Part shown: piece by piece, positions 15,048 to 31,603 of the stretch
Layout of the letters: each line of letters starts with the position of its first letter
Position numbering within the stretch: the first letter of the stretch is position 1
From: Oscillospiraceae bacterium
GTDB taxonomy: Bacteria; Bacillota; Clostridia; Oscillospirales; Oscillospiraceae
Length of the DNA: 43,272 nucleotides
Direction of reading: 5' to 3'
NCBI GenBank assembly: GCA_902775985.1
Contig: CACYOR010000005.1
Location: 1 to 43,272, forward strand
Notes under the pieces: generated by a model
Told to the model about the DNA's origin: nothing
The model's database searches: none
The model's input: only the letters and a program-made list of their open reading frames with translations
Position numbers and translations under genes: made by a program

Positions 15048-17684
15048 ATGGAAAAATACGGACTGAACCAACTGCGGGAGATGTTTCTCTCGTTCTTTGA
15101 GAGCAAGGGCCATCTGCGCCTGCCCAGCTTCTCGCTGATCCCCCAGGACGATGCGAGCCTTCTGCTCATTAACTCCGGCATGGCGCCCATGAAGCCCTAT
15201 TTCAAGGGCGAGAAGGAGCCCCCGCGCCACAGGGTCTGCACCTGCCAGAAGTGCATCCGTACCGGCGATATCGAGAACATCGGCAAGACCGACCGCCACG
15301 GCACCTATTTTGAGATGCTGGGCAACTTCTCCTTTGGCGACTACTTTAAGCACGAGGCCATCGCCTGGAGCTGGGAGTTCCTGACCTCGCCCGAGTGGGT
15401 GGGCCTGGATCCCGACCGGCTCTATCCCTCCGTCTATGTGGACGACGATGAGGCCTGGGAGATCTGGAACAAGGAGATCGGCATCGCCCCGGAGCGCATC
15501 TTCCGCTTCGGCAAGGAGGACAACTTCTGGGAGCATGGCGCCGGTCCCTGCGGCCCCTGCTCCGAGATCTATTATGACCGCGGCGAGAAGTACGGCTGCG
15601 GCAAGCCGACCTGTACGGTGGGCTGCGACTGCGACCGCTATATCGAGGTGTGGAACAACGTCTTCTCCCAGTTTGACAACGACGGCCAGAACCACTATAC
15701 CGAACTCAAGCAGAAGAACATCGACACCGGCATGGGCCTGGAGCGCCTGGCCGTTGTCTGCCAGGATGTGCAGTCCCTCTTCGATGTGGACACGGTCATG
15801 AACATCACCCACAAGGTGAGCGAGCTGACCGGCGCCTACTACGGCAAGAGCCATAAGATGGACGTGTCCCTGCGCGTCATCACCGACCATATCCGCAGCG
15901 GCGTCTTCATGATCTGCGACGGCGTTCTGCCCTCCAACGAGGGCCGCGGCTACGTGCTGCGCCGCCTGCTGCGCCGCGCCGCCCGCCATGGCAAGCTCCT
16001 GGGCGTGAACGAGCCCTTCCTCTACAAGGTCGTGGAGACCGTTGTGCAGGAGAACGAGTGCCAGTATCCCGAGCTGCGGGAGAAGATGGCCTACATCGTG
16101 CGCGTCATCAAGACCGAGGAGGAGAACTTCGCCAAGACCATCGACGCCGGCATGAAGATTTTTGCCGATCTGCTGGCTGAGCACAAGGCGAAAGGGGAGA
16201 GCACCTTCTCCGGCGCCGACGCCTTCAAGCTCTATGACACCTACGGCTTCCCCGTGGATCTGACCGTGGAGATGTGTGCCGACGAGGGCATGGGTGTGGA
16301 CGAGGCCGGCTTCAAGCAGCTCATGGAGGAGCAGCGTGTGCGCGCCCGCAAGGCCCGCGAGGCCCTGGGCGATCTGGGCTGGGCCGGCATCGAGTTCGGC
16401 AAGGACATGCCCGAGACCGAATTTGTGGGCTATGACAATGCCTCCTGCGAGGCGAAGGTCCTGGCCATCGTGGCCGACGGCGAGTTCCGGGAGGAGATCC
16501 CCGCCGGGACCGAGGCCATCGTCGTACTGGACAAGACCGTTCTCTACGCCGAGATGGGCGGCCAGGTGGGTGACCACGGCACGCTGAGCATCGGCGAGAC
16601 CCGTTTCGAGGTCAACAACGTCCTGAAAAACAAGGGCGGCAAGTTCATGCACTACGGCAAGCTCCTCTCCGGGGACCTGAAGCTGGGCGACACGGTCACT
16701 GCCGTCTATGACGAGACCCGCCGCGCCGCCATCCGGCGTGCCCACAGCGCCACCCATCTGCTGCAAAAGGCCCTGCGCGACGTGCTGGGCGATCATGTGC
16801 ATCAGGCCGGATCTCTGGTGGAGCCGGACTTCCTGCGCTTTGACTTTACCCATTTCTCCGCCGTCACGGCCGAGGAGCTGCAGAAGGTGGAGAACGCGGT
16901 CAACGAGGCCATTCTGAAGGGCCTGCCCGTTGAGACAAAGGAAATGCCCATCGACGAGGCCCGCAAGGCCGGCGCCACCGCCCTCTTTGGAGAAAAATAC
17001 GGCGATATCGTGCGCGTGGTGAACATGGGCGGCTACAGTGTGGAGCTCTGCGGCGGCACCCATTTGGACAACACCGCCAAGGCCGGTGCCTTCCACATCA
17101 GCTCTGAGGGCTCTGTGGCCTCCGGCGTGCGCCGTATCGAGGCGACCACCGGCCTGCGCACCCTGCAGGAGCTGAGCGACACGCTGCGCATGGTCAATAC
17201 CCTGGCGGCCGGCTACAAGGCCAGTCCCGCCGACCTGCCCGCCCGTCTGGAGCAGCAGGCCAACGAGCTCAAGGAGGCCAAGCGCGTCATTGAGCAGTAC
17301 AAGGCCAAGGAATCCGCCGGCGGCGCCGACGCCATGCTGAAAAACGCGGTGGAAGTGGGCGGACTGCATGTGGTCACCTGCAGCCAGACCGACTGCGACG
17401 CGGCAAAGCTGCGGCAGATCGGTGATGTGCTGCGGGATAAGGACAGCGCGGTGGTCGCGGTCGTGGCCGCGGTCAACGGGGAGAAGATCACCTTCCAGTG
17501 CGTCTGCGGAAAGGACGCCGTGGCCAAGGGCGTCAAGGCCGGCGATATCATCCGCGCCATCACCGCCATCGCCGGCGGCAAGGGCGGCGGCAAGCCGGAC
17601 TCCGCCATGGGCGGCGGCAACGACGTGAGCAAGCTGGACGAGGCCCTGGCCGCGGTCAAGGGTCTGGTCGCGGAGAAAGTCTGA
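15048..17684 (+). CDS. alaS: Alanyl-tRNA synthetase
   Basis: An 878-residue protein of normal length. The class II catalytic core shows LRLPSFSLIP, NSGMAPMKPYF, and CQKCIRTGDIENIGKTDRHGTYFEMLGNFS across motif 2, and NEGRGYVLRRLLRRAARHG in motif 3. The editing domain has the zinc set: RRAHSATHLLQKALR (HxxxH) and ELCGGTHLDNT (Cys and His). The C-Ala region ends with GGKGGGKPDSAMGGG, the usual glycine-rich DHHA1 end. It charges tRNA-Ala and hydrolyses mischarged Ser- and Gly-tRNA-Ala. It is expressed through the T-box. The HIT gene follows after 27 bases. Confidence 0.98.
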   Translation: MEKYGLNQLREMFLSFFESKGHLRLPSFSLIPQDDASLLLINSGMAPMKPYFKGEKEPPRHRVCTCQKCIRTGDIENIGKTDRHGTYFEMLGNFSFGDYFKHEAIAWSWEFLTSPEWVGLDPDRLYPSVYVDDDEAWEIWNKEIGIAPERIFRFGKEDNFWEHGAGPCGPCSEIYYDRGEKYGCGKPTCTVGCDCDRYIEVWNNVFSQFDNDGQNHYTELKQKNIDTGMGLERLAVVCQDVQSLFDVDTVMNITHKVSELTGAYYGKSHKMDVSLRVITDHIRSGVFMICDGVLPSNEGRGYVLRRLLRRAARHGKLLGVNEPFLYKVVETVVQENECQYPELREKMAYIVRVIKTEEENFAKTIDAGMKIFADLLAEHKAKGESTFSGADAFKLYDTYGFPVDLTVEMCADEGMGVDEAGFKQLMEEQRVRARKAREALGDLGWAGIEFGKDMPETEFVGYDNASCEAKVLAIVADGEFREEIPAGTEAIVVLDKTVLYAEMGGQVGDHGTLSIGETRFEVNNVLKNKGGKFMHYGKLLSGDLKLGDTVTAVYDETRRAAIRRAHSATHLLQKALRDVLGDHVHQAGSLVEPDFLRFDFTHFSAVTAEELQKVENAVNEAILKGLPVETKEMPIDEARKAGATALFGEKYGDIVRVVNMGGYSVELCGGTHLDNTAKAGAFHISSEGSVASGVRRIEATTGLRTLQELSDTLRMVNTLAAGYKASPADLPARLEQQANELKEAKRVIEQYKAKESAGGADAMLKNAVEVGGLHVVTCSQTDCDAAKLRQIGDVLRDKDSAVVAVVAAVNGEKITFQCVCGKDAVAKGVKAGDIIRAITAIAGGKGGGKPDSAMGGGNDVSKLDEALAAVKGLVAEKV

Positions 17685-18067: not shown

Positions 18068-18102
18068 AAAAACAGCCTCGGAGCGATCTGAGGCTGTTTT
18101 TT
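18068..18102 (+). terminator. Intrinsic terminator after HIT gene
   Basis: AAAAACAGCCTC (18068-18079) pairs with GAGGCTGTTTTT (18090-18101) around GGAGCGATCT. The T tract is long, so it is strong rightward, and the A tract makes it usable leftward as well. Confidence 0.9.
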
Positions 18103-18115
18103 GCGGAGGAGAGAC

Positions 18116-18931
18116 ATGCGGAAGCTTGCCATTATGGGCCTGTCCTTTTCCGGGGCGATCCTGCTTGCCTGTTATCTGCTGCCGGGAAACTGGCTGCCCA
18201 CCGCGGCGCTTATCTGCGTCGGGGCGGGCGTAGCGCTGCTTTTGCTGCGCCGAAACTGGCTGCGCGGCTTCGCCCTCGCGGCCCTGAGCTGTGCTGTGGG
18301 CCTGGGCTGCTTTGCGCTTCACGCCCGCGTCACCGCGCTGCCGGCGCGGCAGCTGGACGGACAGACCCGGACGATCCGTGCCCAATTGCTGCGCTATCCC
18401 GAGGATTACGGCCGCTATGTCCAGGCGGAGATCCGGCTGAGTACCGAAGGCCTCCCGGAACTGCATGCATTCCTCTATGACAACAGCGGCACGCTCCGCG
18501 GCGCCGAGCCGGGACAGTGGCTGGAGACGGAGGTGAAGCTTGCCCGCGCCGACCGCAAATACGGCGAGAGCTACCGGGCCAATGCAGCGCGGAACATCTA
18601 CCTGCTGGCCACGGCAAAAGGAGAGATGAGCTTCGGCGTGCGGGAAAAAGGCCCGCGCTTCTGGCCGACGGAGCTGAACCATCATCTGGTCGGCCTTGTG
18701 CGGAAACTCTTTCCCAGGGACACAGCGGCTTTCATGCGCTCCCTGCTCCTGGGCGATAAGACGGAACTCTATCAGGATACGGAGCAGGAACTGGCCATGA
18801 GCCGTGCGGGGCTGATGCATGTGGTGGCGGTCTCGGGCGTTCAGTATCTATTCTTCGGCTTTTACAGAATCGCCAGAAAGCCCGTAAACTCGGGCTTTTT
18901 TTGCACCCGACCCTCCGAATGTAGAGAATAA
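18116..18931 (+). pseudogene. comEC: 5' part of comEC, cut by the mobile element
   Basis: The first 241 residues match the N-terminal part of the ComEC/Rec2 competence channel: two or three early membrane helices, the DUF4131-like beta domain, then FPRDTAAFMRSLLLGDKTEL and AMSRAGLMHVVAVSG, the conserved lead-in to the Competence domain that normally continues with M-H. After G241 (base 18838) the reading changes to VQYLFFGFYRI and a basic tail unrelated to ComEC, and ends at 18931. A complete ComEC has about 700-800 residues, so the membrane channel and the metallo-hydrolase part are missing here and probably lie behind the right end of the element. The ATG at 18116 has a GGAGGAG site. The truncated product cannot take up DNA. 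Confidence 0.88.
18878..18903 (+). terminator. Terminator at the left edge of the element
   Basis: AAGCCCG (18879-18884 with flanking A) pairs with CGGGCTT around TAAACT, followed by seven or more T. It lies inside the out-of-frame tail of the cut comEC and would stop transcription coming from the chromosome before the cargo operon. Confidence 0.8.
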
Positions 18932-19136: not shown

Positions 19137-19165
19137 GTGACAAGTCTAGGGTTTTCGTATATAAT
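19137..19165 (+). promoter_or_regulatory. Promoter of the AT-rich cargo operon
   Basis: GTGACA (19137-19142), a 17-base spacer and a perfect TATAAT (19160-19165). The first gene starts 163 bases further, so the transcript has a long 5' leader. Confidence 0.7.
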
Positions 19166-19327
19166 ATAAATTCGAACGAATGCACTCAGACATTAGTTTT
19201 TGTTACAAACGAATTCACCAGATCGACGAATAAATACGTAGACTTTCTATTGTCAACCGCATTTGTACAAACAGTTAGTTGTGGCGCATTTATTGTTTTG
19301 CCACTCCGGATGTAGACGAGAGTAAAC

Positions 19328-20503
19328 ATGAAAATTGCCATTTTAGATGCAGATTTGATAGGGCGTCAAAAGCACCGTTTTCCTAATCTCGTTTGTGAGA
19401 AGATTTCGGCCTACTGGAAAGAAAAAGGGGCTGAAGTTGTACTTAAGCTCGATTATGAAAACTTGGATGATTACGACCAAGTATATATATCTAAAGTTTT
19501 TACAGATACTCCTGTGCCAGAAGGATTATGTGAAACGGATCGTATTCACATAGGAGGAACCGGCTTCTATTTTGACAAGGCCCCAAATCTGCCTGATGAA
19601 ATAGAGCATCATATGCCGGATTATGATTTATACAATGAGTGGATTGAAAGTGAGGTTTCTAAAGCAGAAAAAGTAGCAATAGCAGAAAAAAGGGCCTTTA
19701 ATAGAGATAACTTTTTGCTGCAATTTAAAGAATATACGGATTACAGCATCGGATTTATGACTAGAGGCTGCTTCCGGAAATGTCCGTTCTGTGTAAATCA
19801 GAAATATGATCATGTTTTCAGGCACAGTCCCCTCGAAGAGTTTTATGATCCAAAACGAAAAAAGATATGCCTTCTCGATGATAATGTGCTCGGCTGTGGA
19901 CAATGGCGCTCTATCTTGGAAGAGTTGATAGCAACAGGCCGTCCATTCAAATTTAAACAAGGCATGGATGAGAGACTTTTGACAGATGAAAAGTGCCACA
20001 TGCTTTTTACTGCTAATTACGATGGTGACTATACCTTCGCGTTTGATAATATCTCTGACTATGACTTGATCCACAAAAAGCTTCATTTGATCAGAAAGTA
20101 TACAAATGTGACATGCCTAAAATTTTATGTGCTGGTCGCATTTGAAAGCACCGATGCTGATGATATCGAAAACGCATTTAAGAGAATTGAATTGTTAATG
20201 CGATATCGATGCCTCCCGTATCTGATGCGTTATCAGAATAAAAATGATACCCCTTGGAAGCGTTCAGAGTATCGCGAAATGTATATCACAATGGCAAGGT
20301 GGTGCAATCAGCCAAGTTTTTATAAGAAAATGACTTTCAGGGAGTTCTGCCTTGCTAACCAAGATCGAATTAAGACAGAAGGAAAGCTTTGCACGGCAAT
20401 GAGAGCAATGACCAGCTTTGAAGAAAAGCATCCCGAGATAGCGCAAAGATATTTTGACCTAAGGTTTCCGAAAAAAGTTGAGGATAATTGGGTGGAGAAA
20501 TGA
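19328..20503 (+). CDS. Radical SAM protein, first gene of the putative defence operon
   Basis: A 391-residue protein. RGCFRKCPFC places C148, C152 and C155 in the CxxxCxxC pattern that binds the 4Fe-4S cluster of radical SAM enzymes. The first 110 residues (MKIAILDADLIG, then alternating strands and YDQVYISKVF) look like the Rossmann-type domain of B12-binding or MiaB-like radical SAM proteins, but no DxHxxG cobalamin motif is visible. Downstream KICLLDDNVLG and FKFKQGMDERLL are typical barrel strands. The substrate is unknown; nucleic acid is a possibility given the helicase and ATPase encoded next. The ATG has only a weak ribosome site (GAG). The stop overlaps the next ATG. Codon use is AT-rich, unlike the flanking genes. 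Confidence 0.8.
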   Translation: MKIAILDADLIGRQKHRFPNLVCEKISAYWKEKGAEVVLKLDYENLDDYDQVYISKVFTDTPVPEGLCETDRIHIGGTGFYFDKAPNLPDEIEHHMPDYDLYNEWIESEVSKAEKVAIAEKRAFNRDNFLLQFKEYTDYSIGFMTRGCFRKCPFCVNQKYDHVFRHSPLEEFYDPKRKKICLLDDNVLGCGQWRSILEELIATGRPFKFKQGMDERLLTDEKCHMLFTANYDGDYTFAFDNISDYDLIHKKLHLIRKYTNVTCLKFYVLVAFESTDADDIENAFKRIELLMRYRCLPYLMRYQNKNDTPWKRSEYREMYITMARWCNQPSFYKKMTFREFCLANQDRIKTEGKLCTAMRAMTSFEEKHPEIAQRYFDLRFPKKVEDNWVEK

Positions 20504-21195
20504 GCTTTTATAGTGAGTGGCTGACTGATTACGACAGCAGAAGCTGTAACAGTTATATAATTCAGTTTCTGAAAAAAGAGCCTCAAACAACTGCAGCATT
20601 GCTCAATGGCAGCAATGAGGATCTGGAGTCTGCATTTTCTGTTTTAAATCGCGTACCACTTAAAGCATTTTTAGATGTGATTCTTACACTTCGTCTTGAT
20701 CGAACTATGAAGACCTCAGAGGTACTCCAGTATAGTTCTTTTTATGACGGAGCAAATCGAATCCCTGAGCTGCTGGAGTTCTTTCCTAACGGTGAGAGCT
20801 TTGTGAACTTGGGATATCAACTTGTTGGCGCTTCAAATGAGGCTGCAAATCGGAAATATGGTGAAAACCATTCAAGACTTGCTGAAACACTCAACCTTGT
20901 CAGTATATCGGAGTCCAAGCCCCGCTATGCAAAGAATACAGCTTGGGGACGATATTTGGTGCAGTTTTCTTTTGAGGAAAAACAAGAGCTCTTTAAGAGA
21001 TTTCTTCTTCGTGAATACTATCTTCAGGTTATATTGCAACAAGCATTTCAGGGCCCTGTATCGTACTTTAAGACGGTTTCTTTTTTGGCGGAATCAACAG
21101 CAACACGGCGTAGATCCAATACACATCACGTCTTAAATTTCATTCTTGCTGGTACCGATTGGGAACGCTATTTAGAAAACATCGAATGGAACTAA
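20500..21195 (+). CDS. Unknown protein of the cargo operon (231 residues)
   Basis: I do not recognise this protein. From the ATG at 20500 it has 231 residues, is soluble, and seems mostly helical, with many Phe/Leu/Tyr at helix spacing (SFYSEWLTDYDSRSC at the start, VLQYSSFYDGANRI in the middle, RFLLREYYLQVILQQAF near the end). No Cys cluster, P-loop or catalytic signature is visible. It overlaps the radical SAM stop as ATGA with a GGTGGAG site, so its synthesis is coupled to that protein and it may be a partner or substrate-binding subunit (inference). The helicase gene starts 17 bases later. Confidence 0.75.
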   Translation: MSFYSEWLTDYDSRSCNSYIIQFLKKEPQTTAALLNGSNEDLESAFSVLNRVPLKAFLDVILTLRLDRTMKTSEVLQYSSFYDGANRIPELLEFFPNGESFVNLGYQLVGASNEAANRKYGENHSRLAETLNLVSISESKPRYAKNTAWGRYLVQFSFEEKQELFKRFLLREYYLQVILQQAFQGPVSYFKTVSFLAESTATRRRSNTHHVLNFILAGTDWERYLENIEWN

Positions 21196-21212
21196 TATTC
21201 AGGTGAATCAAT

Positions 21213-23285
21213 ATGGCATTACGAGATCTGAAACTTGAAACAAGCTATGAATCTGATGAGAGCAGGGGACAGTTACTTGACAGCTTTTATATCCCTGTAC
21301 TCGAATGCGCCAATAGATATTATAGAATAGCCGGTTTTTTCAGCTCGTCGAGTCTGATTGTAGCGGCAAAAGGCATAGCAGGCTTGATACATAATGGTGG
21401 CAAAATGTATTTACTTGTATCGCCGGAGCTGTCAGATGAGGACTATAAGACAATCGTTGAACATGATCAAATCACAGCAAGCAATAAAATGTTTGACGAT
21501 TTAGATTTTGATTCTCTACCACATGAAAACATCCAAGCTCTCGCCTGGCTTCTTGATGCGGGGCGCCTCGATATAAAAATTGTGGTCGGTTTAAAGTCTA
21601 AGAATAGCCTGTTCCATCAGAAAGTCGGAATTGTTTTTGATAGTAATGGTGATGTCCTCTCGTTTTCTGGGTCAATTAATGAATCTGCGCAAGCATGGAT
21701 CAATAACATAGAAGAGTTTAAAGTTTTTCGTTCATGGGAACCAGGTCAGATAGATTACCTTCAGTCTGACCTAAATAAGTTCTTGTCATACTGGAAGGGT
21801 GAGCGGCCTAACGTTGCACATGTTTATGATATCCCTGAAGCCATAAGAGAAAAAATAATTCGCGTGCGACCGAGAGATATTGGTGATCTCCAAATAATGC
21901 GAAGATACAGAAGGGATAGCAAGGCAAAAGAAAACTTGTTGTCCTTATATCCTCATCAGAAGGAAGCCGTAAAGAGATGGATCAGCAATAACCATTCACT
22001 GTTAATGGAAATGGCAACTGGGACAGGTAAAACCCGAACAGCGATTGGTTGTGTGGCTGAGATGCTAAAAACAGGAGAGAAGCTCTGTATTATAATTGCG
22101 ACTCCACAGCTTACACTGACTCAACAGTGGGAGAAGGATATTATTGAACTTAATGTAAGCGTTGATAAAAGAATTACTGTACCTGGCTCATTTACGAGTG
22201 CGCAATGGAAGAAGCAGATGGAGCTCCTGCTTCTTGATATGAGCGATGACAAAATCAATACCGCGATCATCTTTACTACCCATACTACGGCATCAACAGA
22301 CCGATTTATTGATATTATTAGGAGAAATAAGTATACAACAAAAATACTATTTATTTGTGACGAAGTACATGCGATAGGTTCTGCTCAGCAAAGGAAGGCA
22401 ATGTTGCCTGAATATGATTATCGAATCGGATTAAGCGCTACTCCTGAACGGATGTTTGATGATGGAGGGACTCATCTGATCCGCTCCTATTTTGGAAACG
22501 ATTCATTTGAGTTTACCATTGCAGATGCTTTACACACGATTAATCCTGACACAAAGCAGCCGTTCCTTAATCAGTTTTACTATTTCCCTATCTTCGTGCA
22601 GCTTACACCGGCTGAAACAAAAAAATATGCGAACTATACTCGTCAAATCGCAAGGCTTCTGCAACAGGAAGAGATTGATGAAGAAGAGTTACAGCGTTTA
22701 TATGATAGACGGGCTGAAATAGGGAAAAACGCAGAAAATAAATACGAGGCTTTTAGTCAATTGCTGGACAGGATGGATCCTCCTGAAATACATGATACAA
22801 TAGTATTTGTGTCTGATCAGCAAATAACTCGATGCTTTGATATAATGAGTGAAAAGAGAATTCGCCGCGCTAAAATCACAGAAAGTGAATCAGCAAATAA
22901 AATCGTGAATGAAGAGGGAGAATCAGAGCGGCAAGAAATCATTTCTCAGTTTAAGCGTCGGGATTTGCAAGTACTTGTTGGTATTAAGTGTTTGGATGAG
23001 GGAATTGATATTAAAAATGCCCGAGTCGCGATCCTAATGGCTAACAGCACTAATCCTCGCGAATACGTTCAAAGAGTCGGACGTGTTATTCGCACCCAGC
23101 CCGGAAAAGGGCCTTCGGAAATATATGATTTAATAATCACTCCAGCCAAAGGAGCATCCTCCGGAATGGGTATTTTGGAGAAAGAATCACGCAGAGCACA
23201 ACAAATTGCAATTAATGCACTTAATTATGATGAAGTAAGAAGTGCATTTGAAGAAAGAGGTGTAATCCTGGATGCCGATCAGTAA
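21213..23285 (+). CDS. Phospholipase-D-like domain fused to SF2 (DEVH) helicase
   Basis: A 690-residue protein. Residues 20-175 form a PLD-like domain: YRIAGFFSSSSLIVAAKG, then SLFHQKVGIVFD with H135 and K137 and FSGSINES at about 152-158, a single HKD-type site as in phage-defence nucleases and DNA-binding PLD domains. The helicase part has LYPHQKEAVKRW (Q-like), EMATGTGKTRTA (Walker A, about 267-276), ICDEVHAIGS (motif II, DEVH 383-386), GLSATPERM (III), IKCLDEGIDIKNARVAIL (V) and YVQRVGRVIRTQPGKG (VI). It should use ATP to move on nucleic acid; the PLD part may cut DNA or only bind it. Such fusions occur in several restriction-like systems. Its end overlaps the next small gene by 14 bases. 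Confidence 0.9.
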   Translation: MALRDLKLETSYESDESRGQLLDSFYIPVLECANRYYRIAGFFSSSSLIVAAKGIAGLIHNGGKMYLLVSPELSDEDYKTIVEHDQITASNKMFDDLDFDSLPHENIQALAWLLDAGRLDIKIVVGLKSKNSLFHQKVGIVFDSNGDVLSFSGSINESAQAWINNIEEFKVFRSWEPGQIDYLQSDLNKFLSYWKGERPNVAHVYDIPEAIREKIIRVRPRDIGDLQIMRRYRRDSKAKENLLSLYPHQKEAVKRWISNNHSLLMEMATGTGKTRTAIGCVAEMLKTGEKLCIIIATPQLTLTQQWEKDIIELNVSVDKRITVPGSFTSAQWKKQMELLLLDMSDDKINTAIIFTTHTTASTDRFIDIIRRNKYTTKILFICDEVHAIGSAQQRKAMLPEYDYRIGLSATPERMFDDGGTHLIRSYFGNDSFEFTIADALHTINPDTKQPFLNQFYYFPIFVQLTPAETKKYANYTRQIARLLQQEEIDEEELQRLYDRRAEIGKNAENKYEAFSQLLDRMDPPEIHDTIVFVSDQQITRCFDIMSEKRIRRAKITESESANKIVNEEGESERQEIISQFKRRDLQVLVGIKCLDEGIDIKNARVAILMANSTNPREYVQRVGRVIRTQPGKGPSEIYDLIITPAKGASSGMGILEKESRRAQQIAINALNYDEVRSAFEERGVILDADQ

Positions 23286-23454
23286 AAAGATAGTAAAAGA
23301 AATTGAAAAGCTTGATGCATCTGAAAAGGAAAAAAAGCTTTTGCAGACAATTCTTGAACTAGAAGACGGGGGATTAAGGAATTACACCGTTCCATATGAA
23401 AGAGAGATAAACAACTTCATCAATGAAACGAAGGATGGAGGCGATCGCTCTTGA
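23272..23454 (+). CDS. Small charged protein between helicase and ATPase (60 residues)
   Basis: A 60-residue lysine- and glutamate-rich protein, predicted mostly helical (KKIVKEIEKLDASEKEKKLL). The ATG lies inside the helicase gene (14-base overlap) and its TGA overlaps the TTG start of the ATPase gene. Such tight packing makes it a real gene rather than chance. I do not recognise a family; a small subunit or an adaptor of the ATPase is possible. Confidence 0.65.
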   Translation: MPISKKIVKEIEKLDASEKEKKLLQTILELEDGGLRNYTVPYEREINNFINETKDGGDRS

Positions 23455-25466
23455 ACGGCATTAAGATTGATGAAATACGGTTTGAAAACTATCGCCAATA
23501 TGGGACGGGTTCTATTAGCTTCCCTGGCGGGAGTAGTCACAATTTGTCTATTCTGATCGCGCAGAATGGCACAGGGAAAACCACACTCCTTAATGCAATT
23601 ACATGGTGCTTGTATGGGAAAGAGCCGCAGCTAGCAGATAAAGATAAGGCACTTCCTGTGTTAAACACTCAGGTTCTCAAAGATGCTGCAGAAAACGAAA
23701 TAAAAGACGTCCAGGTGACTTTGACTGTCTCTGATGGTGACAAAGTGATCGAGTTTAGTCGGAAACACAGTTTTATTCCTCGGACTGGGCGTGACGGCAT
23801 CAAACGAGCGGTGGATGGTCCCGATACCTTTACTGTTTCTACAACTGTACAGCGTGACTTTTCCAACACGAAAATTGTTACCGGGATTGATGCTGAGTTC
23901 CTTAGAAACCAGTATTTTCATGACGCCATCTATGATTTCTACTTCTTTGATGGTGAAAATCTGAAAATGTTTTTTACGCCAGGGCGAGAAAAAGATATAA
24001 AGAGATCGATCTATAATATATCTCAAGTTTCACTGCTTGAGAATGTTCTGGATCATGTACAGAAACTCTCGTCTCGGTATACGCATGAGCTAGGAAAAGC
24101 ATCACCTGACATTGAAAAAATCCAGACGGAGAAGGAAGAACAAGAAAAAGCGCTCCAGCGCCATCGGGATTCACTTTCGGATGCAAAGCGCGCAATCTCA
24201 AAACTGTCACTTGAACAGACTGAAATCGACGATGCTTTGACACGCTATAAACCTATCACTGATCTTCAATCAGAGAGAGCAGCTTTAGAAACGGAATCAG
24301 AAAATATCAAGATTAGGCGAGAAACGCTTTCAACAGAGAGATCCGCCTTTATTCGTAGATATACTGTGCTGATTAAACTGTATCCTCGTATGCAGTCCAT
24401 CCTGAGATACATCTCAGAGAAAGAAGTAAACGGGGAACTCCCGCCGTCCATTGATATCGCTCAAGTCAAAGAGCTCCTAGATCTCCTTAACGGAAATCTT
24501 GATCAGCCGTGTCCGATGTGTAATCATGAAATTGGCGAAACCGGTAGAGAACATCTTGAGCGTCTCTTGGCTAAGGCGTCCGTTTCATCAAAGACCTCGA
24601 ACTTCTTAAAGGAAATAAAAGGAACACTGCAGGATGCAGTTGATGAAGTTAAACAGTATCGCACGAAAAGAGCAAAGATAACGCAAACGGAAAGCGCTAT
24701 TGAAGAAGATGATAGAAGAGTAACTAAGCGGCTTGCTGAAATTGCCAAAATCCTAATCAATTATGAGAATAGTGGTGAGGAGAAAGTCAATGTGCCCAAG
24801 CTTGAGGCACGGAGAAATGATATTAAGCAAAATATAGCTACACATAATCAGACAATTGGAGCTGCGGAAAGTGGTATAAAGCTCTGCGAAAAAGAGATTG
24901 AGAGGCTAGATAAAAAACTGGAAGAAGCCAAATCAAAGCTTGAACAGTCCGGTAAAACACAACGTCAGCTTGCGGTTGTCAACATGCTGAAAGGCTATTA
25001 CACTCAAATCCTCAACGATATTACTGGCGGTATGCGCGATGAGATTGAAGGAACAACACGGCAGATTTTTGAAACAATGAACTGGAAAACCAAGTCTTTC
25101 GGGAGTATGGAAATTGATGATGATTATTCTGTTTCCATTTGCGATCCTGATGGGCTTGTGATGACCGCGTCTCTGAGTGCTACCGAGCAGATGGCTTTGG
25201 CCTACGCTTTTATCCTTGCCATTCATAATGCATCAGGACGGAACTGTCCTCTCGTTATTGACTCGCCTATTGGCAGGTCGTCAGACAAGAATAGAGAATG
25301 TATAGCCGAAGCGCTCCTGGAAATCAGCGAGGAAAAACAGATCATTATGTTGTTTACTCCTGATGACTACACCCTGCCAGTCCAAGAAATGTATGCTGAT
25401 AAAGCCTATATTAAAAAATTGCAGTTGAGCGAAAATGAAAAATTTGTTGAAGGGATTGAGAGATAA
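23451..25466 (+). CDS. DndD/Rad50-like SMC-type ATPase with zinc hook
   Basis: A 671-residue ABC/SMC ATPase. DEIRFENYRQYG followed by LIAQNGTGKTTLLNAITWCLYG (split over 35-55) gives the N-terminal Walker A; FYFFDGENL at about 163-171 is a phrase typical of DndD proteins of DNA phosphorothioation systems. Long coiled coils run from about 195 to 345 and 365 to 515, with CPMC at 354-357 at the turn, a Rad50-type zinc hook. The C-terminal lobe has SLSATEQMALAYAF (signature), PLVIDSPIGRSSDKN (Walker B) and IIMLFTPDDY. It starts with TTG at 23451, behind GGAGG, and the TTG overlaps the previous stop. DndC, DndB, DndE and DptFGH are absent, so it is DndD-like rather than part of a known Dnd set. Confidence 0.88.
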   Translation: MNGIKIDEIRFENYRQYGTGSISFPGGSSHNLSILIAQNGTGKTTLLNAITWCLYGKEPQLADKDKALPVLNTQVLKDAAENEIKDVQVTLTVSDGDKVIEFSRKHSFIPRTGRDGIKRAVDGPDTFTVSTTVQRDFSNTKIVTGIDAEFLRNQYFHDAIYDFYFFDGENLKMFFTPGREKDIKRSIYNISQVSLLENVLDHVQKLSSRYTHELGKASPDIEKIQTEKEEQEKALQRHRDSLSDAKRAISKLSLEQTEIDDALTRYKPITDLQSERAALETESENIKIRRETLSTERSAFIRRYTVLIKLYPRMQSILRYISEKEVNGELPPSIDIAQVKELLDLLNGNLDQPCPMCNHEIGETGREHLERLLAKASVSSKTSNFLKEIKGTLQDAVDEVKQYRTKRAKITQTESAIEEDDRRVTKRLAEIAKILINYENSGEEKVNVPKLEARRNDIKQNIATHNQTIGAAESGIKLCEKEIERLDKKLEEAKSKLEQSGKTQRQLAVVNMLKGYYTQILNDITGGMRDEIEGTTRQIFETMNWKTKSFGSMEIDDDYSVSICDPDGLVMTASLSATEQMALAYAFILAIHNASGRNCPLVIDSPIGRSSDKNRECIAEALLEISEEKQIIMLFTPDDYTLPVQEMYADKAYIKKLQLSENEKFVEGIER

Positions 25467-25912
25467 TGGCCAAGAATATTGTTGACTACAGTAAAGGTCG
25501 CCGTGAATATCTCGATTACTTACATACAAAAGGGATATTCGGATTGAGCAGGTCAATTGACAATAAAGAGCAAGCACTCTTCCTCGCAGCTTTAGGGTGT
25601 GATCATCCTGTGCCACTGTCTAGTAAAAAAGATGAAGGCGGTTGGTTCCGCACAGAGAGCGTCACAAAGTATTCCAAGGATGTCGCTATGATGAGCTGCT
25701 TGCTGCTTGGAACTGCAAAGACAGACGATGATTTTGACAAGTTCTCGCAGTTAGAAGCTTATATGGACTATGTCGAACAATGTGCAGAAAGCGGATTTAG
25801 GGTAATTGAAAGAAAGCTTGAAGAATGTGGTGATGACAACGATTTACTTGAAAGACGAATGCTAAAAGAGTTAGACTTGCTCTATACATCGGTTGTCGAG
25901 AACGACATCTAA
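25466..25912 (+). CDS. Unknown protein, last gene of the cargo operon (148 residues)
   Basis: A 148-residue protein that I do not recognise. It is acidic toward the C-terminus (LEECGDDNDLLERRMLKELD) and predicted helical, with SIDNKEQALFLAALGCDHP in the first third. It is not similar to DndE, which normally takes the place behind DndD. The ATG overlaps the ATPase stop as TAATG, so it is translationally coupled to it; a strong terminator follows after 6 bases. Being coupled, it is probably a subunit that works with the ATPase (inference). Confidence 0.75.
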   Translation: MAKNIVDYSKGRREYLDYLHTKGIFGLSRSIDNKEQALFLAALGCDHPVPLSSKKDEGGWFRTESVTKYSKDVAMMSCLLLGTAKTDDDFDKFSQLEAYMDYVEQCAESGFRVIERKLEECGDDNDLLERRMLKELDLLYTSVVENDI

Positions 25913-25918
25913 ATACTT

Positions 25919-25955
25919 AAAAGCCGCTGCAGTTTATTCGCAGCGGCTTTAGCTT
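25919..25955 (+). terminator. Terminator ending the cargo operon
   Basis: AAGCCGCTGC (25921-25930 with preceding A) pairs with GCAGCGGCTT (25940-25949) around AGTTTATTC. The T tract is broken (TTTAGCTTTG), and an A-rich left arm could serve leftward transcripts from the next gene as well. Confidence 0.8.
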
Positions 25956-26275: not shown

Positions 26276-27403
26276 TTAACCTTCATCGAAATCGTCAGCG
26301 CTCACATTAACAGGAGCTACATCATCTGTACCGGTAGCCTGTCTGCGCTGAACAGGGGAGAGCTGAGCGGCGTTCTCCCGGATCTGGGCTTCTACGCGAT
26401 CGGCAACATCGGGGTTATCAATGAGGAACTGCTTCACGCCATCGCGGCCCTGAATTCGATTATCCTCAACAGTAAACCAGGCACCAGCCTTTTCGATGAT
26501 CTCCAGCTTTACGGCTAGGTCGACGATCTCGCCGATGCGGGAGATGCCTTCACCATACATGATGTCGAACTCGGCTTCTTTGAACGGAGGAGCCACCTTG
26601 TTCTTCACAACCTTGGCTCTGGTGCGGGCACCGACATATTCACCGTTGATCTTGAGGGATTCAATACGGCGGACATCAATACGCACGCTGGCATAGTATT
26701 TCAACGCAAGACCGCCGGAGGTTGTTTCCGGATTGCCGTAAGGATTGCCGATCTTCTGACGGAGCTGGTTGATAAAGATCACGGTGCAGTTGTTCTTGGA
26801 AATGGCACCAGCAAGGCGGCGCATAGCCTGCGACATCAGGCGGGCAAGAACACCAACGACAGAATCACCAATTTCTCCTTCCAGCTCAGAGCGGGGGATA
26901 AGGGCGGCGACGGAGTCCACGACAACAATATCCACAGCGCCGGAGCGGACGAGGGACTCACAGATATCCAGCGCCTGTTCACCGGTATCCGGTTGGGAAA
27001 TCAGGAGCTCATCAATGTTGACGCCGAGTGCATGCGCGTATGCAGGTTCCAGTGCGTGCTCTACGTCGATATAGGCGGCGGTCCCGTTGGCCTTCTGTGC
27101 TGATGCGACGACGTGCAGGGCCAGGGTAGTCTTGCCGGAAGCTTCCGGACCGTAGATCTCCACGATGCGGCCCTTCGGTACGCCTCCGATACCGAGCGCC
27201 AGATCCAGGGAAAGGGAACCGGTCGACAGTGCCTCGACATTTACAGGAATATCGTCACCCAGACGCATGATGGTGCCCTTGCCATAGTCGCGCTCAATAC
27301 GCTTGAGCGCCTCTTCCAGGGCCTTCTTTTTATCTTCCGGCGTACCCTTTGCCGCAGAGATAGGGACAACCTTCGTGTTCTTCTTTTCTTTTGCAGCAGC
27401 CAT
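26276..27403 (-). CDS. recA: RecA recombinase encoded by the element
   Basis: A full-length RecA (375-377 residues). [32 protein letters not shown] (Walker A), [57 protein letters not shown] (L2 loop region) and [15 protein letters not shown] are all present and unbroken. It polymerises on single-stranded DNA, pairs homologous strands and stimulates self-cleavage of LexA-type repressors. ATG at 27403 was chosen because AGGAG sits 9 bases before it; an ATG at 27409 is only 3 bases from the same site. It lies between phage-like genes, next to the element's own repressor. It could in principle be a host recA picked up with the element. Confidence 0.95.
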
Positions 27404-27494
27404 TTTCATCTTCTCCTCTCATGTGTATCAGGGCGGATTTCTCCTCTTACGGTTACAAGTCTACCATAAGAGGTGTCCAATAAAACTCCCAGTG

Positions 27495-31502: not shown

Positions 31503-31540
31503 ATATCGTGCCGTCAGCGAATTGGCGTTGACGAAGGACC

Positions 31541-31603
31541 AATCGGGGTCGACAGACATAGTTCTGCTTCAAGCAGAGCATAGTCTGTTGGCCCCGATTT
31601 TTT
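31541..31603 (+). terminator. Long, two-part hairpin terminator (possible small RNA 3' end)
   Basis: AATCGGGG (31541-31548) pairs with CCCCGATT (31592-31599), continued by GACAGAC (31551-31557) with GTCTGTT (31583-31589). An inner TCTGC/GCAGA hairpin lies around 31563-31577, and six or more T follow. The stem is much longer than a normal terminator. It separates the XRE operon from the next regulator. Confidence 0.8.

Follow-up and report, generated by a model that had tools for sequence, protein, structure and literature searches.

A six-gene operon on the forward strand of a 43,272-nucleotide stretch of Oscillospiraceae DNA (GenBank assembly GCA_902775985.1, contig CACYOR010000005.1; the whole stretch is hereafter called the window) occupies positions 19,137–25,955, with six complete and intact open reading frames (ORFs) spanning 19,328–25,912. 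The operon is a variant of the antiviral PbeABCD cassette. No earlier description of this variant was found, and in it a radical S-adenosylmethionine (radical SAM) protein and a helical, winged-helix-like protein (g2) precede the four Pbe genes. It is fairly likely to be a prophage-carried, restriction-modification-like antiviral operon, in which the radical SAM protein would mark self DNA, g2 would couple modification to restriction, and PbeABCD would act as the effector. No description was found for the pair of radical SAM protein and g2 and its exchange among restriction modules; the window operon is probably one member of a wider, radical SAM-marked restriction family.

Identification of the operon as a PbeABCD variant

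An earlier note on this DNA, made without database searches, had presented the six genes as a defence system without a name; this has to be corrected, since genes 3 to 6 are those of PbeABCD. Gene 3 (21,213–23,285) encodes a 690-aa protein with a PLD (HKD) nuclease-like domain fused to a superfamily 2 (SF2) helicase and matches PbeA of the PADLOC library (E = 7.7e-196); residues H135, K137, D143 and G153-S154-N156, as well as the helicase motifs, are kept in five aligned PbeA proteins. Gene 5 (23,451–25,466, with a TTG start) encodes a 671-aa ABC ATPase with a coiled coil and a CxxC zinc-hook motif (CPMC), which is matched by PADLOC PbeC (E = 5.2e-85) and DndD (E = 1.6e-34). The identities that the note had given to the radical SAM protein, the PLD-SF2 helicase and the DndD-like ATPase of a defence-type operon therefore hold, and the PADLOC search that it recommended names PbeA and PbeC, while returning no match for g2 or, at E ≤ 0.1, for gene 1, and none for the radical SAM or g2 proteins of the other modules described below.

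The two small proteins are assigned by other means. Gene 4 (23,272–23,454; 60 aa) has no family match in the library scans and is called PbeB-like from its size and its place between PbeA and PbeC, a place that its homologues also hold in relatives. A profile comparison links gene 6 (25,466–25,912; 148 aa) to PbeD proteins from other Pbe loci (prob 94, E = 1.2e-7), and PbeD is a DndE cognate by published assignment (Rakesh 2024, PMC10853773), so that the DndE listed as missing in the note has a counterpart in the operon. PbeD is taken to be a DndE relative with two ribbon-helix-helix domains; compared by profile with three Dnd-type DndE-like proteins, gene 6 gave no match. The domain fusion of PbeA, the DndD-like ATPase of PbeC, and the A-B-C-D order and sizes are those of PbeABCD. 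The CxC zinc hook, the name-giving motif of Rakesh et al., is replaced by CxxC, which is found in all 20 distinct PbeC proteins examined of the window's branch (two of them also with an overlapping CxC string), in contrast to CxC alone in 16 of 17 PbeC proteins outside that branch, the seventeenth being ambiguous; this comparison covers the loci other than L110 (truncated), L083, L095, L112, L133, L136 and L213–L217.

Phosphorothioation in the window's host was considered and set aside, because neither DndC nor DUF4007 was detected in its genome (94% complete, in 212 contigs), and the ORFs around the operon include no dndCDEA-type gene.

Comparison with published Pbe systems

In the 2019 description (Xiong 2019, PMC6459918), pbeABCD is a four-gene antiviral cassette that works with DndCDEA phosphorothioation, and the accompanying survey found dndCD near 233 of 553 PbeAC pairs, leaving 58% without them. 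In 2024 Rakesh et al. reassigned the parts of the Pbe system, PbeA being an HKD nuclease-helicase, PbeB a small protein, PbeC a CxC ABC ATPase and PbeD a DndE cognate; in some systems cytosine methylases replace the phosphorothioation genes, and the authors foresaw that some such systems may mediate entirely different modifications (PMC10853773). The radical SAM protein and g2 form a concrete candidate for a modification of this "entirely different" kind.

The window operon shares with the DndCDEA-PbeABCD system the order PbeA, PbeB, PbeC, PbeD and comparable PbeB and PbeD sizes (66 and 152 aa in PMC6459918 versus 60 and 148 aa in the window), but differs from it in having no dndCDEA at the locus and the radical SAM gene and g2 in front; from most other Pbe loci examined it differs in its CxxC rather than CxC hook and in a PbeA that falls on a separate branch. 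With the CxC ABC-ATPase/DndE systems (PMC10853773), it has in common the Pbe core, a putative non-phosphorothioate modification and an extra putative DNA-discriminating protein (MTaX1 in those systems), although a radical SAM protein takes the place of the cytosine methylase and the hook is CxxC. SspABCD resembles it in combining modification genes with a winged-helix protein for recognition (SspB), but lacks a radical SAM protein and uses a PP-loop protein, SspD, as its DndC equivalent (PMC10853773). The term "radical SAM" is absent from the main text of PMC6459918 and occurs twice in that of PMC10853773, both times in connection with DndC; in the open PMC papers searched, no report of a radical SAM–Pbe association was recognised, and a prior mention in Krishnan 2020 (CxC ABC-ATPases) is possible.

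Radical SAM genes in place of phosphorothioation genes

At Pbe loci collected by a search led by PbeA, radical SAM genes are found in place of phosphorothioation genes. Among 398 genomes of the phylum (sample A), 48 match the PbeA profile at E ≤ 1e-40, and the best 24 of these 48 carry a radical SAM gene in 7 cases, Ssp-like genes in 10, Dnd-like genes in 3 and neither in 4 (one on a short contig); the 24 weaker matches (262–1381 aa, one with an in-frame stop, E of 4.6e-71 or worse) were excluded from the count beforehand. Five more loci were obtained from 391 genomes of the class (sample B), comprising one with a radical SAM gene, two with Ssp-like genes and two with Dnd-like genes. When the 29 loci are pooled, 8 have a radical SAM gene, 17 have Ssp or Dnd genes, 4 have neither and none has both, a mutual exclusion with p = 1.2e-4 if the loci are independent. 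The radical SAM proteins of the window, L031, L032 and L213 belong to the window's own family and are all accompanied by g2. One genome (G456) holds two PbeABCD loci, L213 with the radical SAM gene and g2, its PbeC being split in two frames, and L217 with Dnd genes.

A tree of PbeA, which like the other trees here comes from a quick search with SH-aLRT support only, groups the radical SAM-linked loci and L087 on a single branch of 24 rows (SH-aLRT 100) that is separate from the Ssp branch; the PbeA proteins of L133, L046, L079 and L092 lie outside it. The purity of this branch is partly built in, because much of the set was found through the radical SAM protein, and four of its members (window, L031, L032 and L087) were also recovered by the PbeA-led search. 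The PbeA of L213, which is outside the tree, is 55% identical to that of the window, versus 31–32% for four phosphorothioation-linked places in the same search.

Two further arrangements were seen at these loci. PbeABCD adjoins Ssp-like genes in 12 of the 29 loci (L077, L080, L081, L083, L085, L086, L088–L090, L093, L214 and L215), with DUF4007 and an ATPase of about 1200 aa in all 12, a PP-loop gene in 11 and a cysteine desulfurase in 8, a combination that is not named in the consulted text of PMC10853773. Moreover, a protein of 1,100–1,330 aa is encoded directly upstream of PbeA at L046:9638-13045, L079:5532-9002, L092:11258-14623 and L216:5945-9949; it contains a Sigma-70 region 4 domain in L046 and L079, the two that were tested, and accompanies a distant radical SAM protein in three cases.

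The radical SAM protein and g2

Gene 1 (19,328–20,503; 391 aa), the proposed modification enzyme, has the CxxxCxxC motif and the barrel fold of the radical SAM superfamily, as judged by motif alignment, structure model and fold search: C148-x3-C152-x2-C155 is invariant in 70 of 70 aligned relatives, and the AlphaFold2 model (pLDDT 95.5) finds MtaB, MiaB, AprD4, TokK and RimO as its nearest folds in the Protein Data Bank (PDB). The family is nearly missed by curated libraries, with Pfam Radical_SAM detected in 4 of the 70 relatives at E ≤ 0.01. By profile it matches a phage family, phrog_9298, "radical SAM domain protein" (E = 1.5e-52), for which the PHROGs entry names the domain but no function; relatives in IMG/VR are 36–83% identical to the window protein.

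With the MtaB, MiaB and RimO enzymes and those of the AprD4/TokK type, the window protein shares a Rossmann-like N-terminal domain and a radical SAM core (the MtaB entry being an integrative model), but it differs from them in lacking conserved N-terminal cysteines and any PDB sequence match. MtaB and MiaB are modifiers of tRNA bases, and in methylthiotransferases such as MiaB, MtaB and RimO three N-terminal cysteines bind a second 4Fe-4S cluster. Such an identity was rejected for gene 1, as only C148, C152 and C155 are invariant among the 70 rows; 47 of the 70 keep the N-terminal C23, and at position 68 cysteine is not the common residue. C295, in the C-terminal half, is kept in 66 of 70 and would permit a cysteine-relay chemistry. 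As to an N-terminal B12-binding domain, the window protein has no Pfam match; this protein is profile-aligned from residue 1 with the radical SAM protein of L087 (prob 96), in which PF02310 is detected (E = 1.2e-12), and the Rossmann-like N-terminal domain taken with L087 suggests the use of cobalamin.

Gene 2 (20,500–21,195) encodes g2, a helical winged-helix-like protein of 231 aa and the proposed DNA-recognition or mark-reading subunit. Its model is confident (pLDDT 96.9), and a fold search gives no match at E < 0.001 and a local winged-helix match to 3f6v (prob 0.98, E 0.69); a PDB sequence search returns nothing better than E 0.95. An assignment through Pfam was tried and dropped, with sub-threshold AAA_assoc_C matches in 2 of 26 members. 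It also occurs as a fusion, with the radical SAM protein in L116, L118 and L153 and with a PLD nuclease in L117 and L126. Matches to g2 occur in 4 of 398 genomes, three with a window-type radical SAM protein and one with a D12 adenine methyltransferase. In the last arrangement (L207:7685-9852), the D12-class adenine methyltransferase is followed by a DUF6996-DUF6997-DUF7226 protein, probably the endonuclease, with a weaker g2-like C-terminus.

Recurrence with Pbe and other nuclease modules

As the note had proposed to check, the operon recurs elsewhere as a unit and in several phyla. When GTDB contigs were scanned with three aligned radical SAM proteins, blind to neighbouring genes, 45 loci emerged, of which 33 have a nuclease module beside the radical SAM gene by local comparison: Pbe in 20, an SNF2/ParB/small-nuclease set in 7, PLD and/or PD-(D/E)XK in 4 and a GmrSD-like module in 2; the remainder comprises 2 loci in phage-like surroundings and 10 with none assigned. 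The one-strand order radical SAM-g2-PbeA-(B)-C-(D) is present in 17 of the 20 Pbe-linked loci, two of them as radical SAM-g2 fusions and several cut by contig ends, and this order is also seen in the window, L031 and L213. The 17 loci come from Bacillota groups, from one metagenome-assembled genome (MAG) each of Verrucomicrobiota and Kiritimatiellia, from a complete Lentisphaerae genome and from a MAG labelled Nanoarchaeia, for which a binning error is possible.

Pfam backs the SNF2, PLD, PDDEXK_11 and GmrSD_N domains with one example each (GmrSD_N in L103); neither the 135-aa "small nuclease" nor one of the ParB-like proteins is matched by Pfam, and the second ParB-like protein scores below the cut-off, so that these names rest on motifs. 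In PADLOC, the SNF2 protein matches ZorD (E = 1.3e-47) and DpdE, and the PLD protein matches DrmC (E = 6.9e-12). The SNF2/ParB cassette runs radical SAM gene, ParB-like gene, 135-aa GEAK-motif protein, SNF2 helicase, ParB-like gene and g2 in L099, L102, L104, L107, L108, L135 and L137, with g2 not found in L137, and is a candidate defence system of its own. PbeB-like matches are confined to Pbe loci and absent from the other modules and the phage loci, bearing in mind that a 60-aa protein is easily missed.

Exchange among these modules was followed on two trees, one of the radical SAM protein (70 of 105 rows, after removal of fusions, fragments and near-copies; viral loci that had no assigned module carry the label phage) and one of g2 (32 rows, the g2 part of fusions having been excised by position). 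On the radical SAM tree, the SNF2/ParB label changes 7 times among 7 rows (6.8 in shuffles), at least three of these changes being forced by supported branches. On the g2 tree, in contrast, SNF2/ParB forms one group (1 change among 6 rows versus 5.7 in shuffles; support 89), and PLD also forms one group (support 82). Scattered labels on the first tree and grouped labels on the second indicate that the radical SAM gene moved among nuclease modules, not freely, and that g2 stays with its module; together with the g2 fusions, this pattern would be expected if the marking enzyme were exchangeable and g2 served in recognition or in reading the mark.

Copies in phages

Related genes are also carried by phages. 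Of 59 viral radical SAM loci, one (L153) holds the whole operon, as a radical SAM-g2 fusion followed by PbeABCD, and 29 of 30 viral records searched whole show neither a g2 nor a PbeA match, although the records may be fragments. In 43 dereplicated viral loci, the radical SAM gene lies directly beside a DNA methyltransferase in 9 and within 4 kb of one in 15; the direct adjacency compares with 17 of 540 other genes in the same loci (p = 3.4e-5), and the record annotation of the Oscillospiraceae phage NatCom_21982 contains such a pair too. The radical SAM protein on the viral contig L142 is 83% identical to that of the window. Two viral radical SAM frames (L193:8001-9983 and L194:8001-10250) are 660 and 749 aa long and hence have extra C-terminal parts.

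Proposed mechanism and alternatives

In the proposed mechanism, self DNA would receive a covalent mark from the radical SAM protein, which g2 would guide or assist. A nucleobase carbon is the most likely site; among the possible chemistries, cobalamin-type methylation is a tentative first guess, held somewhat below an even chance. PbeC, as an ABC ATPase with a zinc hook, would scan DNA with PbeD and PbeB, and where the mark is absent these proteins would license PbeA, an SF2 translocase with a PLD nuclease, to block or cut. As a shared recognition subunit, g2 would either target the radical SAM protein or read the mark, thereby coupling modification to restriction. The note's proposal that the radical SAM enzyme would modify DNA or nucleotides stands in so far as the comparative evidence supports a modification component, and DNA as its substrate, the chemistry, self/non-self marking and the restriction of phages are what we infer beyond that. 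It is further judged, on balance, plausible that the family constitutes an unrecognised radical DNA-modifying class, which would serve as the exchangeable "M" half of at least four nuclease modules, with g2 as shared recognition protein, phage copies as anti-restriction genes and a new base in DNA. If so, restriction-modification would gain a radical SAM marker able in principle to functionalise positions that ordinary methyltransferases do not reach, the related phage enzyme would be a form of camouflage, and bacteria and phages with the gene would be predicted to contain a new DNA nucleoside.

Several observations weigh against self-DNA marking by an exchangeable radical SAM enzyme. Radical SAM proteins act on many kinds of substrate, the fold similarity of gene 1 is distant (TMq 0.42–0.53 for the top ten matches), a PDB sequence search gives no match at E ≤ 1, and the N-terminal methylthiotransferase cysteines are not conserved, so that the chemistry is not fixed. 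At 94% completeness in 212 contigs, the absence of DndC and DUF4007 from the window genome is not proven, and the exclusion of phosphorothioation holds by locus and not by genome, as G274, with a radical SAM gene at its Pbe locus, has DUF4007 elsewhere (the DUF4007 search matched 2 of 10 genomes tested). Half of the eight PbeA-led radical SAM proteins (L046, L079, L087 and L092) belong to more distant families in genomes without a g2 match; for L079 and L087 the alignment to the window family is by profile, for L046 and L092 by BLAST only (E 1e-14 and 3e-5), and L092 has no Pfam match. The Pbe share of the 45 loci is inflated because all three query proteins were Pbe-linked; 10 of these cellular loci have no assigned module (5 of them cut or split), L125 has a radical SAM gene and Pbe with g2 not found, and L132 and L133 differ in orientation from the common order (L132 being the same locus as L032, at 100% identity). 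On the radical SAM tree, the Pbe label changes 9 times (6 forced) versus 16.8 in shuffles and the phage label 9 times versus 23.4, with 0 of 500 shuffles as low in either case; these clustered labels mean that the exchange was not free. Lastly, the Pbe paper reports no cleavage of viral DNA and no growth defect upon loss of the modification genes (PMC6459918), from which it follows that DndCDEA-PbeABCD is not a classic restriction-modification system.

The alternative that survives best, although unlikely, is that the enzyme makes a small molecule or modified nucleotide, which would act either as a poison of phage polymerases or as an activator of the nuclease module. Viperins, antiviral radical SAM enzymes that produce ddhNTPs, offer a precedent, and effector modules that vary while the radical SAM protein stays would suit a shared signal; this is countered by the fusion of the DNA-binding-like g2 to the enzyme in three loci, by the missing PADLOC match of gene 1, and by phages that keep the gene without PbeA or g2 and, in 9 of 43 loci, directly beside a DNA methyltransferase, for which self-protection is the better fit. 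Less probable still is a RiPP-maturase-like modification of a protein or peptide of the system, such as PbeB or another small component: gene 1 has a weak NCBIfam peptide-maturase match (E = 0.0073; 15 bits, where the cut-off is 600) and a role of this sort was proposed in eLife in 2020 for another conflict-system radical SAM protein (PMC7159879), but the restriction of PbeB-like matches to Pbe loci, subject to the small size of that protein, speaks against it. A modification-dependent system, in which the enzyme erases or alters foreign marks or makes the mark that the nuclease attacks, is held to be just as improbable as peptide maturation; GmrSD, to which one partner module is related (GmrSD_N in L103), is a modification-dependent restriction enzyme (PMC4619093), but phages carrying the gene would then mark themselves for attack, unless the enzyme is an eraser, and at Pbe loci the gene replaces protective phosphorothioation genes. 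That PbeABCD is the defence and the radical SAM gene and g2 are unrelated prophage cargo placed upstream by chance is very improbable: the operon does lie in a prophage and phages do carry related genes alone, but the gene order recurs in several phyla, the genes overlap, radical SAM-g2 fusions exist, and the PbeA of radical SAM loci forms one well-supported branch (in a set partly found through the radical SAM protein). Self-DNA marking coupled to PbeABCD remains the preferred reading of the operon.

Operon signals, selection and prophage setting

The layout described in the note was recovered in full, with the junctions ATGA, a 17-base gap, a 14-base overlap, TTGA and TAATG in order along the six genes, a promoter-like site and a 3' hairpin. 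The probable promoter (19,137–19,165, forward strand; GTGACA-17-TATAAT, 11 of 12 positions) is called on its match to the consensus, and promoter-like sites as a class occur at chance level (19 versus 15.9 ± 4.2 in shuffles). The terminator-like hairpin (25,920–25,950, forward strand) has a folding energy of −19.6 kcal/mol (z = −3.5) and a loop of 9 bases, and is absent from the list of a terminator pattern scan. Compared with the homologous operon of L097, the six genes show a nonsynonymous difference of 0.12–0.28, saturated synonymous sites and no internal stops, and all six look kept by purifying selection; g2 is the least conserved protein (60% identity, the other five 69–84%).

The AT-rich character of the operon relative to both flanks was likewise confirmed, with a G+C content of 39.6–43% in the operon, about 60% or more in the left flank and 52–55% in the right one, and its position at the edge of a phage-like element is that of the leftmost cargo of a prophage inserted in comEC. 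The left part of this prophage (18,840–43,272) matches PHROGs families for a repressor, DNA polymerases, a helicase, a primase and HNH. The 5' fragment of comEC that it cuts (18,101–18,931, forward strand; sub-threshold Pfam DUF4131 and Competence matches) stops near 18,840, and the 3' part lies on contig C2 beside a large serine recombinase. The insertion point is a conserved HVVAVSG-MH stretch of comEC (window 18,840–43,272 and L212:2194-8702), and the other prophage end (L212:2194-8702) carries a two-gene cargo of 370 and 208 aa without a Pfam match. Adjoining the operon on the opposite strand is a RecA-like gene (26,276–27,409) that matches a phage UvsX-like family. A tRNA-Leu call by ARAGORN at 15,050–15,133, on the opposite strand to the start of alaS, is probably false, and an Rfam gut-2 RNA is located at 31,509–31,556, where the helicase gene of the prophage begins.

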